Origin: a bacterium | GTDB lineage: Bacteria > Arandabacterota > Arandabacteria > Arandabacterales > Arandabacteraceae | Assembly (NCBI GenBank): GCA_029933125.1 | Contig: JAOZOU010000003.1 | Span: forward strand, 248,001 to 312,000 | DNA: 64,000 nt | Reading direction: 5' to 3' | In this document: one piece after another, positions 21,473 to 31,932 of the stretch | Layout: each line of letters starts with the position of its first letter | Position numbering within the stretch: the first letter of the stretch is position 1 | Translations under genes and position numbers: made by a program | The notes under the pieces: generated by a model | What the model was told of the DNA's origin: nothing | The model's input: only the letters and a program-made list of their open reading frames with translations | Database searches by the model: none

Positions 21473-23491
21473 CTACAGCTTGATCAGCTTCTCAAGAGTC
21501 CCATGACCTGTTTCGAAGTGGAGTCTGCAGAAGTAAACCCCAGGTGAAACTTTCTTGCCGGTATCGTCATTGCCGTACCAGATGACGGAATGAATACCTG
21601 ACTCGAGTCTGGCGCTGCTCAATGTCCTGATCTTCCTTCCCTGTATGTCATAGATCTCGACAAGAGCTCTGCCTGAGGTTGGCAAATTGAAAGTGATGAC
21701 CGTCTTGCCCGCAACAGGGTTAGGATTTGCATCGAGACTGAGCTCGTCCGAAGAGGTATTTGCTAGCACGTCGTTCTCAGGAAGCGAAGGCTCAGAGCCA
21801 TTGTCATCATGAGAGACGTCGTTGAGATGGCATTCATGGTAAAGCTCATTAAGGCACGTTGCAGTCTCATTTACATCACTGAGGCTTGCACCATACGGCT
21901 CAAGTACTTCAAGCTTACCCCCAACCGCAAAGTCAGCTATCGCAAGGAATTCATCGACTGTAAGACCGGCGAACTTACCGCAGTCGTCCGGGATGACGAA
22001 TTCACCGTAGCAGCTTGTGGTTGGCGACATGCCAATAGTTTGGAATACACCACTGCATGAGAACTCACGATTGAGCCTCAGGCCAAGCACCTGACTTGCC
22101 AATACTCCAGCTGGGGTTGTTGTGGGATTGATGAGATCAGAGCCAAGCTCGCCCGGCTTTCCGCCATCAGGCAGGAAATCCTCAACAGCCTCAGCGGATG
22201 TCCATTTTGCAAAATGAGCATCAGGGTCGCCCACCACGCCAATGGTCACACCCTGAGGGAAGACCTCATCAAAGTAGTGATCTCTTATGCAACCAGGTTG
22301 CGTAGAATATGGATCTTCAACCTGCGGAGCAGGGCATCGCGAGCCCCAGCCTCCAATTGTGAAGGAGCAGAAGCCGCCGCAGAAAGGCCGGTAGATATGC
22401 TGGCAGCCCGTATCCGATTCATTGCCGCAGTTGTCAGTACCTATCCAGCACCTTCTGAATATCTGGCCACCACCTGTTGGATCCATTAGGGTATCGTTGA
22501 GAACCACACTCAGCTCAGGCGCATCCGTACAGTTATCCGAGATGCTAGGATCTGTAAATACGGGTTGAGCCTGACATTCGATGGTATCATCAGGTGCACA
22601 TCTCAAAACTGGCGGAATCGTATCCTTAACAGTTACAACCTGCTGGCATGAGCTTATGTTGCAGCACCCATCATGGAACTGCCAGAGCCTTACGATCTTA
22701 TACTCGCACGGCGTACCACCCGGCTTACGAATCACCTCATATGAGTATTCGAATGGTATCTGGTCAAGCTCAGGATTGCAGTTATCGACAGCGGTTGCGT
22801 TCGGTAAGGAGGCAACTTCATCAATACATGCAACTGTTTGATTGGGTGGACAGAACGTGATGCGGGGAGCTTCGCTGTCCTCTATAACTATACGCTGGAT
22901 ACAAGATGAAGAATTGCCAGCATCGTCAGTTGCCGTCCACTTCCTGAGGAGCACATATTCATAGGGGCAGATCTCTGGGTCATGGAAATAGATTGTACTA
23001 TCCTCATATGTTACATCTGGGCGACGATCGCAATTGTCCTCGACTTGAGGTTCACCAAAGTCGCCTACGTTGTCACATGAGAATTCAAGATCGGGTGGGC
23101 AAGTTATAACAGGTGGAGTAGTATCCACAACCGAGATCGCCTGAGAGCACATTGCGACGGATCCCTGCACATCGGTTACCATCCAGGTGCGAGCTATGAC
23201 ACAAATTACTTGTCCAGATCCCGGGCATCTCTCGTCAACATAGAGAGTGTCATAGGGAGGCATGCCACCCTCAATTGTTGGAAAACCTGTTAATGTTGGA
23301 TCTGGAGTCTGGGAGCAGTCAATAGTTATATCCGGTGGGCATGTTATTTTAAGCTGGAGCTTTCCCGCCTGTTCGTCTCCCAGAGATCGCCTATAGGTTG
23401 CAGCTGAAGCATCATTAGGCATCACCATACCGAAAAGAGTAATCGCCAGGATTGCACACGCCGTGGCGTTAAACACAGTAGCATACTTCAT
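21473..23491 (-). CDS. Exported HYR-repeat protein with FlgD-type Ig C-terminal domain
   Basis: Large secreted or surface protein of about 672 residues. From ATG 23491 (AGGTAGG upstream; the GTG at 23500 is less likely) a signal peptide ends near NDASAA. Four Cys-rich HYR-like repeats follow, each starting with a form of ITCPPD / FCPPNQTVAC / RCAPDDTIEC, about 90 residues apart. A DPDAHFAKWTSAEAVEDFLP region of choice-of-anchor type comes next, and then the C-terminal FlgD/sorting-type domain NPNPVAGKTVITFNLP...GVYFCRLHFETG. The domain set is typical of FCB-group candidate phyla. Ligand and secretion route are unknown. Confidence 0.85.
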   Translation of the reverse strand: MKYATVFNATACAILAITLFGMVMPNDASAATYRRSLGDEQAGKLQLKITCPPDITIDCSQTPDPTLTGFPTIEGGMPPYDTLYVDERCPGSGQVICVIARTWMVTDVQGSVAMCSQAISVVDTTPPVITCPPDLEFSCDNVGDFGEPQVEDNCDRRPDVTYEDSTIYFHDPEICPYEYVLLRKWTATDDAGNSSSCIQRIVIEDSEAPRITFCPPNQTVACIDEVASLPNATAVDNCNPELDQIPFEYSYEVIRKPGGTPCEYKIVRLWQFHDGCCNISSCQQVVTVKDTIPPVLRCAPDDTIECQAQPVFTDPSISDNCTDAPELSVVLNDTLMDPTGGGQIFRRCWIGTDNCGNESDTGCQHIYRPFCGGFCSFTIGGWGSRCPAPQVEDPYSTQPGCIRDHYFDEVFPQGVTIGVVGDPDAHFAKWTSAEAVEDFLPDGGKPGELGSDLINPTTTPAGVLASQVLGLRLNREFSCSGVFQTIGMSPTTSCYGEFVIPDDCGKFAGLTVDEFLAIADFAVGGKLEVLEPYGASLSDVNETATCLNELYHECHLNDVSHDDNGSEPSLPENDVLANTSSDELSLDANPNPVAGKTVITFNLPTSGRALVEIYDIQGRKIRTLSSARLESGIHSVIWYGNDDTGKKVSPGVYFCRLHFETGHGTLEKLIKL

Positions 23492-23612
23492 ACAAAACAC
23501 CTACCTTCCTTTGCCATGTAGGAATCCATGACAAACATGCAATGCCCCCCGTCCGTGGAAACGTGCGCCCTCCGTGGCTACGAAGGACAGCATCTGCAGC
23601 CCTCGTTCTTAT

Positions 23613-26331: not shown

Positions 26332-26931
26332 ATGAAAAGGCTGCTTGTGATTCTTGCACTTCTGCTCGTCTTTAGCACAGGATGCATTATGGATGAGAAG
26401 GTGATTGAGATTGTGGTTTCAGGTGAGACCTGTGTTGAGTTCGCCGAGAACGAGGATTCTGAGGATTTCTCAACTGTGACTGTCGTTGACTACGCCGATG
26501 AGATCGATGGGATCCTTGAAGAACATGGGCTTGACCGATCTCGTATCAAAGAGGCTTATGTGGTCGAGGCTTCCTATGAGGTGACTAGTTTTTCCCACGA
26601 CCACGACTGGCACATCTCGGGACAGATTGAAGTTGCGCGGACCGATGTACCTGCTGGACCGTTTGTGCTCATCAACTACACTGACCAATCGGTTGAGGAT
26701 GCTCTTGGTACAGCGATTGCCGCGAGTCTCAACAGCGATGGAGTTGAGCTCCTCAATGACACACTTGAGGACTATGTGAATGGTGGCTCACCTGTCATCT
26801 CGTTTGAGGTTGTAAACGGCAATGTCGACCCAGATCCTTCGGGCTCGGACAGGCTTGTCTTCACCTGGCAAGCGTGTGTCAAGGTTCATATCGTTGTGGT
26901 CGAAAACATAGAGGTGCCAGATCCGTTCTAA
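26332..26931 (+). CDS. Lipoprotein, unknown function
   Basis: 199 residues. Signal peptide with lipobox FSTGC (Cys18). The rest is acidic and beta-rich, with no recognised domain. ATG 26332 is preferred over ATG 26326 because GGGAGG is 7 nt from it and only 1 nt from the earlier ATG. It starts 15 nt after the DUF6588-like gene, so the lipoprotein may assist or bind that barrel. The ending VKVHIVVVENIEVPDPF is a regular strand pattern. Confidence 0.75.
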   Translation: MKRLLVILALLLVFSTGCIMDEKVIEIVVSGETCVEFAENEDSEDFSTVTVVDYADEIDGILEEHGLDRSRIKEAYVVEASYEVTSFSHDHDWHISGQIEVARTDVPAGPFVLINYTDQSVEDALGTAIAASLNSDGVELLNDTLEDYVNGGSPVISFEVVNGNVDPDPSGSDRLVFTWQACVKVHIVVVENIEVPDPF

Positions 26932-26981
26932 CCTTGAGGATCGAGTAGGAGGGAAGTTGCTGCTTCGGGAGCACTTCGATA

Positions 26982-27011
26982 TTGACAATTGGTAACCCTG
27001 GCAATTATGAT
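26982..27011 (+). promoter_or_regulatory. Sigma-70 promoter for tRNA-Glu
   Basis: TTGACA (26982-26987), 18-nt spacer, TATGAT (27006-27011), 32 nt before the tRNA. Confidence 0.7.
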
Positions 27012-27043
27012 TAACTGACAACTATCCCCAAGATCGTAATGGT

Positions 27044-27118
27044 GGCGCCATCGTCTAGGGGTTAGGATAGGTGATTCTCAGTCATCAGACCGGGGTTCGA
27101 ATCCCCGTGGCGCTACCA
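27044..27118 (+). tRNA. tRNA-Glu (anticodon CTC)
   Basis: Acceptor GGCGCCA pairs with TGGCGCT with one G-T at the end. Anticodon stem GGTGA/TCATC encloses loop TTCTCAG, with CTC at 34-36. T-arm CGGGG-TTCGAAT-CCCCG is perfect, and CCA is encoded. It decodes GAG. It is the left neighbour of an accessory block with an AT-rich gene and a restriction-modification pair. Confidence 0.97.
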
Positions 27119-27227
27119 TTCTTCCCTTAGTGGAACCTAAGGACCTGCGACGAGTTAGCTGGATTCCAACTTGCTTCGGGTCGGTAATGTGGTCCAGGCA
27201 TGATGTCGTGGGTGGCAGCTTTTTAGC

Positions 27228-27242
27228 TCCGACCCCGGTGGA
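27228..27242 (+). repeat. Left copy of an imperfect 15-nt direct repeat
   Basis: TCCGACCCCGGTGGA. A second copy with two changes (TCCGACCCCAGTAGA) lies at 28432-28446. The pair flanks the AT-rich exported-protein gene. It might mark the insertion edges; two short imperfect copies are weak evidence. Confidence 0.4.
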
Positions 27243-27244
27243 TG

Positions 27245-28261
27245 TCAGTTGGTGTATTCTACATCCTTAATATCATTCTCTCCTTGTATGTACCTGTTTT
27301 TTAAATCATAACTAACCACTACTACATCAATATCTTTTGGTTGAATATAATCAGGGTCAAGTCTAAAATTTGAAGGGTCCCAAGTAGTGACATGACATCC
27401 TCCATTGTCAGTTAATGCTCTATATCCTAATTCATGATTAATAATATCATGATCTGTTGTATTTATGTCAACAAAAGCTTGTTGAAGCCATTCACCTTCT
27501 CTATATGTGTTAGTACTTGGTAATCCCTCTCTTACTGCTATCCACATTCCATTATCAGGATACCCTTCTGGTATGTAACCATAAACTTGGGGGTTGTAGA
27601 AGTTAATTCCAGTCATTTGCTCCCACTTGTTCATTGTCTCAACACAAGCATTCCAAACATCCCTAAAAGCATATGGATCTTCAGCACTTTCATAATCACA
27701 AAATGTTATTATTGGCAAATCATTAGGATGCCAAGAATAAAACTGAGGATAACCTATGCCATTAGGATAAATATCCCAAGCATCTTTGAAATCATCAGGA
27801 CTAACATAAACATCCACTGGACCACTCAAATCAGGACCATTAGGAATAGTTATAATATAAGAAGGCAAAGCACCATTAAACACAAAATCACCACTAACCT
27901 CCCTAACACACTTAGCACTCCAATAATCTGGATTCCTACAAGAACCACAATTAATCTTTAAAGTATCAACACAAGTTTGAGTTAATGACCTATCTAACCC
28001 ACCAGAATTATCCATCTTCTCTTCCAAGTTTTCATCCTTATACATTGCCTTGATACCACCCCAAGTACTAGGCTTTGTTGAAGTAACACCATTAATAAAA
28101 AAAGTACCATCCTCAGTAGTAAGGTCTTCCACACCTTGAAAACTCACTGGAATCCCAACAATAGGATTACCCTTATGATCAACAATCCTTCCAGAGATGG
28201 TGGCAGCCCCGGCAATTGAGGCTAGACATACAACAACCATTGCAGCGACAATGAGTCTCAT
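27245..28261 (-). CDS. Exported protein with degenerate metzincin-like motif; AT-rich body
   Basis: 338 residues. ATG 28261 has GGAGG 7 nt upstream. A signal peptide (residues 1-19) leads into a carboxypeptidase-regulatory-like start (TISGRIVDHKGNPIVGIPVSF). Further on, YSWHPNDLPIITFC, INFYNPQ and the sequence INHELGYRAL (His276-Glu277) resemble the zinc site HExxH of metzincins, but the second histidine is Tyr, so activity is doubtful. The signal-peptide part has host-like base use; from about residue 25 onward the gene is strongly AT-rich with T- or A-ending codons, unlike any neighbour. This suggests recent acquisition or a fusion. It shares a STWGGIKAMYK stretch with the C-terminus of the exported protein at 31078. 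Confidence 0.75.
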   Translation of the reverse strand: MRLIVAAMVVVCLASIAGAATISGRIVDHKGNPIVGIPVSFQGVEDLTTEDGTFFINGVTSTKPSTWGGIKAMYKDENLEEKMDNSGGLDRSLTQTCVDTLKINCGSCRNPDYWSAKCVREVSGDFVFNGALPSYIITIPNGPDLSGPVDVYVSPDDFKDAWDIYPNGIGYPQFYSWHPNDLPIITFCDYESAEDPYAFRDVWNACVETMNKWEQMTGINFYNPQVYGYIPEGYPDNGMWIAVREGLPSTNTYREGEWLQQAFVDINTTDHDIINHELGYRALTDNGGCHVTTWDPSNFRLDPDYIQPKDIDVVVVSYDLKNRYIQGENDIKDVEYTN

Positions 28262-28431
28262 TGCTCTACCTCCTTCCAGGTGCTATTATGGCACATCCAG
28301 TTGAGTTAATCGAGCCTCCAGTGGATTTAGTCGGGCTAATGGTGGAATTGTTCCGGGTGCGAGGGTGTTCTTGAGATATTTAGTTTGCCAGAGATCAATA
28401 AGGCTCGCTAAGAGGGATTCAAAACTCAAGA

Positions 28432-28446
28432 TCCGACCCCAGTAGA
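28432..28446 (+). repeat. Right copy of the imperfect 15-nt direct repeat
   Basis: TCCGACCCCAGTAGA. See the left copy at 27228-27242, 1.2 kb away. It lies at the junction between the AT-rich gene's upstream region and the restriction genes. Apart from this, the 28262-28514 gap holds no gene I can support. Confidence 0.4.
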
Positions 28447-28514
28447 GATTGACACAGGGCGGACGTTCAACTTATACTGGCTCGTGTGGAGTGACGGCTA
28501 CAACGGGGAATAAG

Positions 28515-29156
28515 GTGCCAAGCAGACTTGTAGAGCTCTTTACAGATCCTTTGCTGGCTGAGAGGATAGGAAGGCGCTTGCCTCGCCTCTTTCAGCTTGC
28601 AGAGGTTGAGAGTTCAAGGGCTGGTAGGGTGGGCATGGAGGTAGGGTCACTAAGGGAGCGGATTGTCGTTGCGCTATTGATGTATAAGTTTGGTAAGGCT
28701 GATGTTGACACGGAGGTGCCAATCACGAAGCCTGAGATCGATGTCATGGTCTTTGGTGTTCCTGTATCGATTAAGACAATTACAGGCAGGGGATTGAGTG
28801 GGGTAAAGCTTGCCTGGACTGTTGACTCTGCAAAAGCATCTGAGTTTCGGAACAGGTACTATCCAGGGTCGGAGATGCTGCTCGTACAGATTGTCTGGGG
28901 AGGGACCGGGAGTTTTTGGTACATTCCGCTGGAGGTCCAGGAGCGTGTTTTCGAAAGGCTTGGACGAGAGGCATATATCAAGCTTCCGAAGCCCGGGACA
29001 AATCCGAGGGGGGTGGAGATAAGCCGGCTAGCATTGGAGACATTGGTATCTGAAGGGGGTGTGATGAGGCTACAGATTGAGTGGAAGCGGGAGAAGGTAG
29101 CGTATGATCCGTACAAGAGGTGGGTAGACTACTGGAGGGAGGAGTGGGATGAGTAG
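28515..29156 (+). CDS. Type II restriction endonuclease, ThaI-like
   Basis: 213 residues from GTG 28515 (the frame is open to 28449, so an upstream start is possible). The pattern SSRAGRVGMEVGSLRERIVVALL, then PEIDVMVFGVPVSIKTITG, resembles the ThaI family, whose founding member cuts CGCG. PEID (residue 71) through SIK (residue 84) reads as a PD-(D/E)XK-type active site. Further support: LPKPGTNPRGVEISR and a C-terminal YDPYKRWVDYWREEW. The stop overlaps the methyltransferase start by 8 nt. Codon use (AGG, AGG-rich, GGGG) differs from nearby genes. Specificity for CGCG is inference only. Confidence 0.7.
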   Translation: MPSRLVELFTDPLLAERIGRRLPRLFQLAEVESSRAGRVGMEVGSLRERIVVALLMYKFGKADVDTEVPITKPEIDVMVFGVPVSIKTITGRGLSGVKLAWTVDSAKASEFRNRYYPGSEMLLVQIVWGGTGSFWYIPLEVQERVFERLGREAYIKLPKPGTNPRGVEISRLALETLVSEGGVMRLQIEWKREKVAYDPYKRWVDYWREEWDE

Positions 29157-30081
29157 GAGGAAGGGTACTCAAACGAGTTCGTTTGGCTCGCCTGGGCGGG
29201 TAAGTCATGACTCTACGTCTTACTATTCGAGCCGATTATATCATGGTCTGCCGAAGGAGCAGAAGCTCAAGTACGTGGAGAACGCAATAGATGAGGGGAC
29301 TCTTGATTCGATTATTTGCAAGTCGTCTGAGAAGATGGAGGAGCTGCCTGACAACAGTGTGCACCTAATGGTGACTTCTCCGCCGTACAATGTTGGGAAG
29401 GATTACGATAGGGACTTGACGCTTGATGAATACCTTTCGTTCCTGAAGCGGGTGTGGAGTGAGGTCTACCGTGTCTTAGTTCCAGGTGGGCGGGCTTGTG
29501 TCAATGTAGCAAATCTTGGTAGGAAGCCATACATACCACTACATGCATATATAGTAAGGGACATGATTGAACTTGGTTTCTTGATGCGGGGTGAGATTAT
29601 TTGGAACAAGGGCTCGAGTGCGGGTTCATCGACTGCTTGGGGTAGTTGGCTTTCGGCGGCGAATCCGACTTTGCGTGATGTGCATGAGTATATCCTTGTT
29701 TTTTCTAAGGGGAGTTTCACGCGTAAGAATCCGAGGAGGAGGAAGAGCACGATAACGAGGGAGGAGTTCTTGGAGTATACGAAGAGTGTGTGGACATTTG
29801 CTGCAGAGTCTGCGCAGAGGGTGGGTCATCCTGCACCATTTCCGGTTGAGCTACCACTTCGGCTGATAAAGCTTTATACGTTTGAGGGAGAGGTGGTGTT
29901 GGACCCATTCATGGGTAGTGGACAGACTGCAATAGCTGCAATAGCTGCAGGTAGGCATTATGTTGGATATGACGTAAATGCTCAGTATGTGAAGCTTGCC
30001 AGAAGAAGGATAGAGGAGTTCTTGACTGAGTCAGGTGCTCTTGAGTTGTTTGATTTGCCGCAAACTAAGAAGGCTCCTTAG
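29149..30081 (+). CDS. DNA methyltransferase of a type II restriction-modification system
   Basis: 310 residues. Protects host DNA from the adjacent nuclease. The catalytic motif TSPPYNVG (near residue 75) precedes the SAM-binding motif DPFMGSGQTAIAA (near residue 250), i.e. the beta-class order. SPPY suggests N4-cytosine methylation, though N6-adenine cannot be excluded. HAPAPFP-type loop (HPAPFPVELPLRLI) and VGYDVNAQYVKLA are also standard. ATG 29149 lies inside the end of the nuclease gene with GGGAGGAG upstream. Base use matches the nuclease, so the pair was probably acquired together. Confidence 0.9.
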   Translation: MSRRKGTQTSSFGSPGRVSHDSTSYYSSRLYHGLPKEQKLKYVENAIDEGTLDSIICKSSEKMEELPDNSVHLMVTSPPYNVGKDYDRDLTLDEYLSFLKRVWSEVYRVLVPGGRACVNVANLGRKPYIPLHAYIVRDMIELGFLMRGEIIWNKGSSAGSSTAWGSWLSAANPTLRDVHEYILVFSKGSFTRKNPRRRKSTITREEFLEYTKSVWTFAAESAQRVGHPAPFPVELPLRLIKLYTFEGEVVLDPFMGSGQTAIAAIAAGRHYVGYDVNAQYVKLARRRIEEFLTESGALELFDLPQTKKAP

Positions 30082-30112
30082 GGGAATTCGCGATTCGGGT
30101 TCCGGACCCTGG

Positions 30113-31077: not shown

Positions 31078-31932
31078 CTATCTATAGAGAGCCTTCAGGT
31101 TTCCCCAGGTTGTGGCTTCTACAGCATCGGGCTGACATGCAAGTTCGATGCGCCAGGCTAGCTCGACAAAACCATAGACGCTCCCGTCCCAGGTGGTGTC
31201 ACCCCCGTCCTCAAATAGCTGGGGCGGACAGTAGGCAAAGTCAACACCGTAAAAGCCTGAATGCATGACGGGATAGTGACTATTGTGAGGTCTCGGGTAT
31301 AGAGCGGGCAGGCATCCAACAATATGGAGCTCACAGCCTTCATCAAGGAGATTGCTAATGTTGTCCAATCCCCACTCAGGAAATGTACAGTCTGTTCCAA
31401 TATGAGTTGCTGTTACAAGAAATCTTGCATGTGAGCCCGGCGGTCCTGCATCAATGAAACAACTCGAAACATCAACAGGAGGATCAATAGGAAGGACGTT
31501 CCAATCCCTGGCCGTCTCGATTGGACCACTATCCCAGAGTGAAGGACCTACGGGGCAACCGTTCTCATCAGCACAATAGATGTCGAATTGCACTGTGAAG
31601 AGTCCGGGATAGGTTGTACCATAGCCGGCAAAATCCAGAAAGCGCAAGCCAACTATCTGATAACAATTGCTTGAGTCACAAACATCGAATCCACCAGTTG
31701 AGACATCTCCGACAGTGAAGAAGGTTCCAATTACTTCACCCGGGCTCCATCCCGAGAAGCCCCAGAACCAAGAATAAGTTGGGCAGGGAACATAGTAATA
31801 GTACTGAAGGCTGCATTCGTCAAGCAGCGCTGTTCCGAAGTCCTCCTTGATCATATAGGGACGCTTCTCTATCCCGTAGCAATCCGAGATGGCTATGGCT
31901 ATTGCGAGTGAAGCCAATAGGACTGTTTTCAT
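31078..31932 (-). CDS. Exported protein, unknown function, WGxxKALYR C-terminus
   Basis: 284 residues with a signal peptide (MKTVLLASLAIAIAISDCYG). It is rich in Cys, Trp, Tyr and Gly and aromatic beta-type segments. The protein ends TTWGNLKALYR exactly at the stop codon, and a near-copy of that ending occurs inside the protein at 27245. No known domain is recognised; comparable proteins occur in FCB-type candidate phyla in my recollection. The ATG overlaps the thyX stop (ATGA) with GGAGG 7 nt upstream, so it is translationally coupled to thyX. Confidence 0.7.
   Translation of the reverse strand: MKTVLLASLAIAIAISDCYGIEKRPYMIKEDFGTALLDECSLQYYYYVPCPTYSWFWGFSGWSPGEVIGTFFTVGDVSTGGFDVCDSSNCYQIVGLRFLDFAGYGTTYPGLFTVQFDIYCADENGCPVGPSLWDSGPIETARDWNVLPIDPPVDVSSCFIDAGPPGSHARFLVTATHIGTDCTFPEWGLDNISNLLDEGCELHIVGCLPALYPRPHNSHYPVMHSGFYGVDFAYCPPQLFEDGGDTTWDGSVYGFVELAWRIELACQPDAVEATTWGNLKALYR

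Follow-up and report, generated by a model that had tools for sequence, protein, structure and literature searches.

A CpG-free, AT-rich tract in the mature coding region of a putative exported-protein gene of an Arandabacterota bacterium

The gene and its surroundings

The analysed window is a 64,000-nt stretch of contig JAOZOU010000003.1 from a bacterium of the phylum Arandabacterota. It contains, at 27245–28261 on the minus strand, an open reading frame (ORF) with an ATG start and no in-frame stop codon, encoding a 338-aa protein predicted to be exported. The first 22 codons (28196–28261, minus strand) are host-like in composition and resemble a signal peptide when read by eye. The rest of the gene (27245–28193, minus strand), which would code for the mature protein, is AT-rich. 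The preliminary description had placed the gene beside tRNA-Glu, and a tRNA-Glu(CTC) gene is indeed found at 27044–27118 on the plus strand. Two further genes, both on the plus strand, were identified as a ThaI-family restriction endonuclease (28449–29156; PF15514, E = 5e-85), whose true start is probably about 60 nt downstream of 28449, and an N4/N6-type DNA methyltransferase (29149–30081; PF01555, E = 9e-49).

Copies of a REP-like repeat are present on the plus strand at 27218–27238 (AGCTTTTTAGCTCCGACCCCG) and, diverged, at 28424–28446 (ACTCAAGATCCGACCCCAGTAGA); a degraded remnant at 30094–30112 (plus strand) was recognized by eye against the single copy of a relative. The imperfect flanking repeats noted earlier thus exist (27225–27242 and 28429–28446, 83% alike), but they are copies of a dispersed repeat, GCTCCGACCCC, which occurs here at 27226, at 28430, and in degraded form near 30100. 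With approximately 60 copies in 1.68 Mb, the repeats are too common to mark one mobile element. Dispersed REP-like repeats (tttttaGCTCCGACCCC) are often arranged as inverted pairs or tandem arrays (e.g., L034, L068, and L075). The palindrome CAATGAG-T-CTCATTG reported across the start codon (28249–28263) is also present; it has no conserved counterpart in the relative, and we estimate that about four palindromes with 7-bp arms would occur by chance in 64 kb.

The window was compared with contig 1 of the same-genus genome G001 (MAG Meg22_1214_Bin_137) using blastn and tblastx, together with the ORFs and tRNA of that contig. A segment of about 3 kb (27122–30104) is missing at the syntenic site, where the tRNA-Glu gene is followed by a spacer of 41 bp that holds one REP copy and then by a diacylglycerol-kinase-like (DGK) gene. 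The segment adjoins tRNA-Glu, is bounded by REP copies, the far one being the degraded remnant, and holds the 338-aa gene, the endonuclease, and the methyltransferase. G001 carries related ThaI genes (contig 405) and a pseudogene copy of the 338-aa gene, both at other places. A ThaI-family endonuclease with an N4/N6 methyltransferase was also found in G007, at a different place. Among the hallmarks of genomic islands at tRNA genes, the shorter syntenic site in a relative was observed; no integrase was found among the ORFs of the segment and no duplicated tRNA end among the repeats in 26900–28700, the right end having been read by eye.

Composition break and absence of CpG

Maximum-likelihood segmentation (gain 101 nats) delimited an AT-rich block that begins near codon 23 and closes with the stop codon; its GC content is 36%, compared with 49% in the window. 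The 3-nat intervals of its edges are 27238–27266 and 28163–28210. The composition breakpoint is stronger than had been claimed, with edges resolved to approximately 30–50 bp, and composition along the gene is far from uniform. The host-like start was recovered as well: the first 22 codons show no AT bias, and the break lies near the end of the signal peptide, at about codon 23. GC content by codon position was 0.47/0.39/0.24 in the 338-aa ORF and 0.50–0.63/0.33–0.47/0.47–0.63 in 11 neighbouring genes.

We scanned approximately 1.7 of the 3.23 Mb of the same genome, on separate stretches. The 500-mer with the lowest GC content in these approximately 1.7 Mb (0.352) lies inside the AT-rich tract; the 500-bp background had a mean of 0.494 and a standard deviation of 0.024 over the first 1.3 Mb; another 0.4 Mb contained nothing lower. 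No second AT-rich or CpG-free tract of this kind was found in the 1.7 Mb. The anomaly is genuine, and nothing else in the half of the genome that we scanned resembles it.

The absence of CpG had been overlooked in the preliminary description: the AT-rich tract contains none. The CpG-free run of 974 bp between successive CpG (27236–28210, a strand-neutral feature) is the longest in 1.7 Mb of the genome, the runner-up measuring 368 bp. Back-translation of the same protein yielded 47 CpG with the codon use of the neighbouring genes and 21.6 with the base weights of the tract itself (minimum nine among 2000 trials). Across codon junctions, 7.0 CpG were expected when the synonymous codons of the tract were permuted, and the observed value of zero was never reached in 2000 trials. 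The lack of CpG thus goes beyond the effect of AT-richness. Bias at all three codon positions, together with the missing CpG across codon junctions, points to a mutational background and not to codon choice. TpG and CpA were moderately raised, C was lost generally, and the first half of the coding strand was T-rich and C-poor at third positions. Two 368-bp CpG-free runs of normal GC content, about 7 kb apart in L027 (7956–8323 and 14978–15345), are apparently repeated or low-complexity sequence. GGCC was strongly depleted in the approximately 1.7 Mb scanned (observed/expected 0.47), which suggests past or present restriction at this site.

Several candidate causes of the CpG loss were rejected. 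Decay of 5-methyl-CpG in the present host would require a C5-cytosine methyltransferase, and no PF00145 match was found in the host genome at E ≤ 0.01 (controls were positive in 10 of 14 genomes). Avoidance of restriction sites could not have cleared all CpG, as CGCG is just mildly low in the genome (0.80). Context-specific editing does not fit C-to-T differences that show no clear context except an excess at CpG, and strand-specific deamination does not suffice as the sole cause, since A/G differences in that first half are biased too (33:12) and the skew is common to the relative. AT-rich, CpG-poor prokaryotic DNA can give such tracts: 12 of 981 overlapping windows of the same length lacked CpG in a Methanocaldococcus plasmid (28% GC, CpG observed/expected 0.33).

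The same-genus copy and the encoded protein

The G001 pseudogene, disrupted by stop codons and frameshifts, is the sole homologue found. Its alignment with the 338-aa gene begins about 53 bp before the start codon and runs as far as the last codon. It has a GC content of 48.4% and 42 CpG in 1026 bp, the contigs of G001 having approximately 52% GC, and the AT bias is therefore not shared by this same-genus homologue. In this comparison of two copies, one of which is broken and may not retain the ancestral composition, 155 differences were AT here and GC there, against 53 in reverse. Within the AT-rich block, 68 sites had T here and C there and 12 the opposite; by codon position, the ratios were 14:2, 16:5, and 37:5. 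The upstream DNA and first codons showed no AT bias relative to the G001 copy. Conserved fourfold sites were AT-rich in 30 of 42 cases. Both copies have a coding strand that is rich in G+T over its first half and in A+C over its second.

The synonymous divergence of the two copies was 0.575, within the range of seven syntenic orthologue pairs (0.56–0.81), which puts their separation at roughly the age of the species pair or later and does not fit a pair joined by a distant donor. The ratio dN/dS was 0.34, and the ORF contains no in-frame stop codon compared with approximately 25 expected from the composition of the tract. The open frame and a dN/dS below one argue for selection on the protein during at least part of its history and suggest that it was, or is, functional and secreted.

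Residues 62–75 (TKPSTWGGIKAMYK; 28037–28078, minus strand) carry, at an internal position, a motif found at the C-terminus of 12 other proteins encoded in this genome. The string WGGIKAMYK, encoded in the AT-rich tract, fits the tail W[GS]xIKxxYR-stop, which every one of the eight genomes examined from the phylum carries. In the scanned parts of the genome, W[GS]x[ILV]K[AS]x[YF][RK] is the exact C-terminus of 12 other ORFs and internal only here. Searched as a DNA pattern, the tail with its stop codon occurred 6–14 times per genome in the eight phylum genomes (reversed control, zero); outside the phylum, one genome from another phylum had nine occurrences and two others had one each. Exported proteins with the tail consensus GPSATExTTWGxIKALYR-stop are encoded at 31078–31932 (minus strand) and by 11 other ORFs (e.g., in L011, L012, L029, and L040). 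We consider the tail a candidate sorting or anchoring signal. One tail-bearing protein matched no NCBIfam model, and the peptide strings tried matched no paper. A 675-aa exported protein at 21473–23500 (minus strand) matches the T9SS type A sorting domain (TIGR04183, E = 2.8e-7), so a second type of C-terminal signal is present in the same genome.

The AT-rich block thus encodes a signature of the lineage. With the synonymous divergence in the orthologue range, this indicates that the protein belongs to the lineage and that the base composition alone is alien. The proposal of foreign coding sequence is accordingly not supported: the tract has the phylum-typical tail motif and matches, over its full length, a homologous gene in the same genus, from which it has diverged at synonymous sites no more than vertical orthologues have. 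Homologue searches returned only the G001 copy, with none in phages, plasmids, or viral contigs. It was the only hit among eight genomes of the host phylum; 80 genomes of the second, tail-sharing phylum gave none, and approximately 85,000 genome contig sets, searched with short peptide patterns only, gave none beyond it. Within the limited sensitivity of these searches, no collection yielded an AT-rich homologue or one closer outside the lineage than inside. Transfer from a distant donor is expected to leave both an atypical composition, which was found, and a closer homologue outside, which was not.

The preliminary description had also read HE..Y as a metzincin HExxH motif with a lost zinc ligand. 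HELGY does occur at residues 276–280 (27422–27436, minus strand), and it had no family match. Searches of Pfam, NCBIfam, and PDB sequences with the 338-aa protein gave nothing significant. A carboxypeptidase-regulatory-like N-terminus was matched weakly, below the cut-off (E = 0.002), and AF2 predictions of the protein, alone and with the pseudogene fragments, had a pLDDT of 31–32 in both runs, too low to be informative about a metzincin fold with a Met-turn. Whatever the origin of the tract, we find it unlikely that the protein is a degenerate metzincin, that is, an inactive HExxH protease. HELG and an upstream helix (WNACVETMNKWEQMTGINFY) similar to the first helix of local M10-type proteins do stand in the expected order, but the residues past HELGY (HELGYRALTDN, residues 276–286) are unlike HExxHxxGxxH/D, the G001 copy has no HExxH, and profile comparison with the local M10-type proteins gave an hhalign probability of 1.3%. 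Nor was there a Pfam or PDB match, and a query fragment in which the Tyr had been changed back to His, used in the family scan only, matched no profile. A lost zinc ligand presumes a metzincin and was not borne out.

Origin of the tract and comparison with known systems

Any account starts from what was observed: the break in composition, the lack of CpG, a homologous pseudogene of host-like composition, and a site that is occupied here but short in G001. We tentatively favour, at somewhat below even chances, the view that the gene is native and genus-restricted and codes for an exported product, and that an allele of the same gene from an AT-rich, CpG-poor background has taken the place of its mature region. 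Such an allele would have acquired its composition in, for example, an AT-rich neighbour or on a mobile element and would have entered by recombination, with junctions near codon 23 and close to the stop codon, leaving the promoter and signal peptide, outside the replaced part, host-type. The recombination, the external AT-rich background, and continued function are what we infer. Replacement is consistent with the sharpness of both edges, the unbiased upstream DNA and signal peptide, the lack of a PF00145 match in the host, the ortholog-like synonymous divergence, the CpG-free windows of the Methanocaldococcus plasmid, and the island-like surroundings. It is weakened by the lack of an AT-rich homologue in all collections searched and by the rarity of recombination between copies approximately 66% identical, as these are. 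It also requires a coincidence of breakpoints with the signal-peptide end and the stop codon, and an AT-rich background acting within the time since the copies separated; moreover, the G001 copy is a pseudogene, and its composition may be non-ancestral.

That the mature region instead shifted toward A+T in place, losing all CpG with no import, through a targeted mutational process or nucleotide-level selection, is the main rival and only a little less probable. The edges match the coding limits of the mature protein, synonymous divergence is not raised, and the shared G+T/A+C pattern of the two halves looks as if AT-ward change overlay a common ancestor. However, we know of no bacterial process that spares a signal peptide and ends at a stop codon, the genome has no C5-methyltransferase match, and the C-to-T differences lack a clear context beyond the CpG excess. 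The absence of a second tract in 1.7 Mb makes a standing local host mechanism unlikely; together with the sharp edges and the effect at all codon positions, it places import of an allele slightly ahead. Gene-specific recoding or hypermutation, a localized process running from the signal peptide to the stop codon and yielding an AT-rich, CpG-free open frame, has a small chance of being correct. Rather improbable is that the gene was already AT-rich on entering the common ancestor, with the copy here keeping the original state and the pseudogene drifting to host composition. The G001 copy is still below its own contigs in GC content and the conserved fourfold sites argue somewhat for this, yet neutral drift from 36% to 52% GC would by our calculation give a flux of about 1.9:1 and not 155:53, the copy here should also have gained CpG, and the upstream DNA is host-like in both copies. 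Fusion of a distant foreign domain to a host signal peptide, as first proposed, would explain the break near the signal-peptide end and the finding of no homologues outside the genus; it is largely refuted, and highly improbable, given the tail motif encoded in the tract and the end-to-end alignment with the G001 gene at unsaturated synonymous divergence.

Foreign composition is routinely taken as foreign descent, and here the two disagree inside one gene. If recombination with an AT-rich allele is the true cause, this would be a clean case of mosaicism within a gene, one that transfer detection based on GC content would misread; if the tract arose in place, it would point to a local mutational process that has not been described. 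As a candidate signal shared across the phylum, the tail W[GS]xIKxxYR merits separate study.

The locus resembles islands of AT-rich lateral genes beside tRNA genes in its low GC content, its tRNA and restriction-modification neighbours, and the absence of the segment in a relative. It differs in that the anomaly is limited to one mature coding region of a protein native to the genus, whereas neighbours, promoter, and signal peptide are host-like, and neither an integrase nor a tRNA-end duplication was seen. The adjacent genes match the endonuclease and the N4/N6 methyltransferase of ThaI-type (PF15514) systems, and their specificity is presumably CGCG; however, the pair is only a neighbour of normal composition, and to our knowledge such systems do not cause CpG loss. 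HELG and one similar helix recall secreted metzincin (M10-like) proteases, from which the protein departs in the Tyr at the third motif residue, the misfit of the remaining motif, and the lack of a profile match. As in CpG-methylated genomes that undergo decay by methylation and deamination, CpG is absent with TpG and CpA moderately raised, but here this is confined to one coding region, accompanies a general loss of C, and occurs in a genome with no C5-methyltransferase match.
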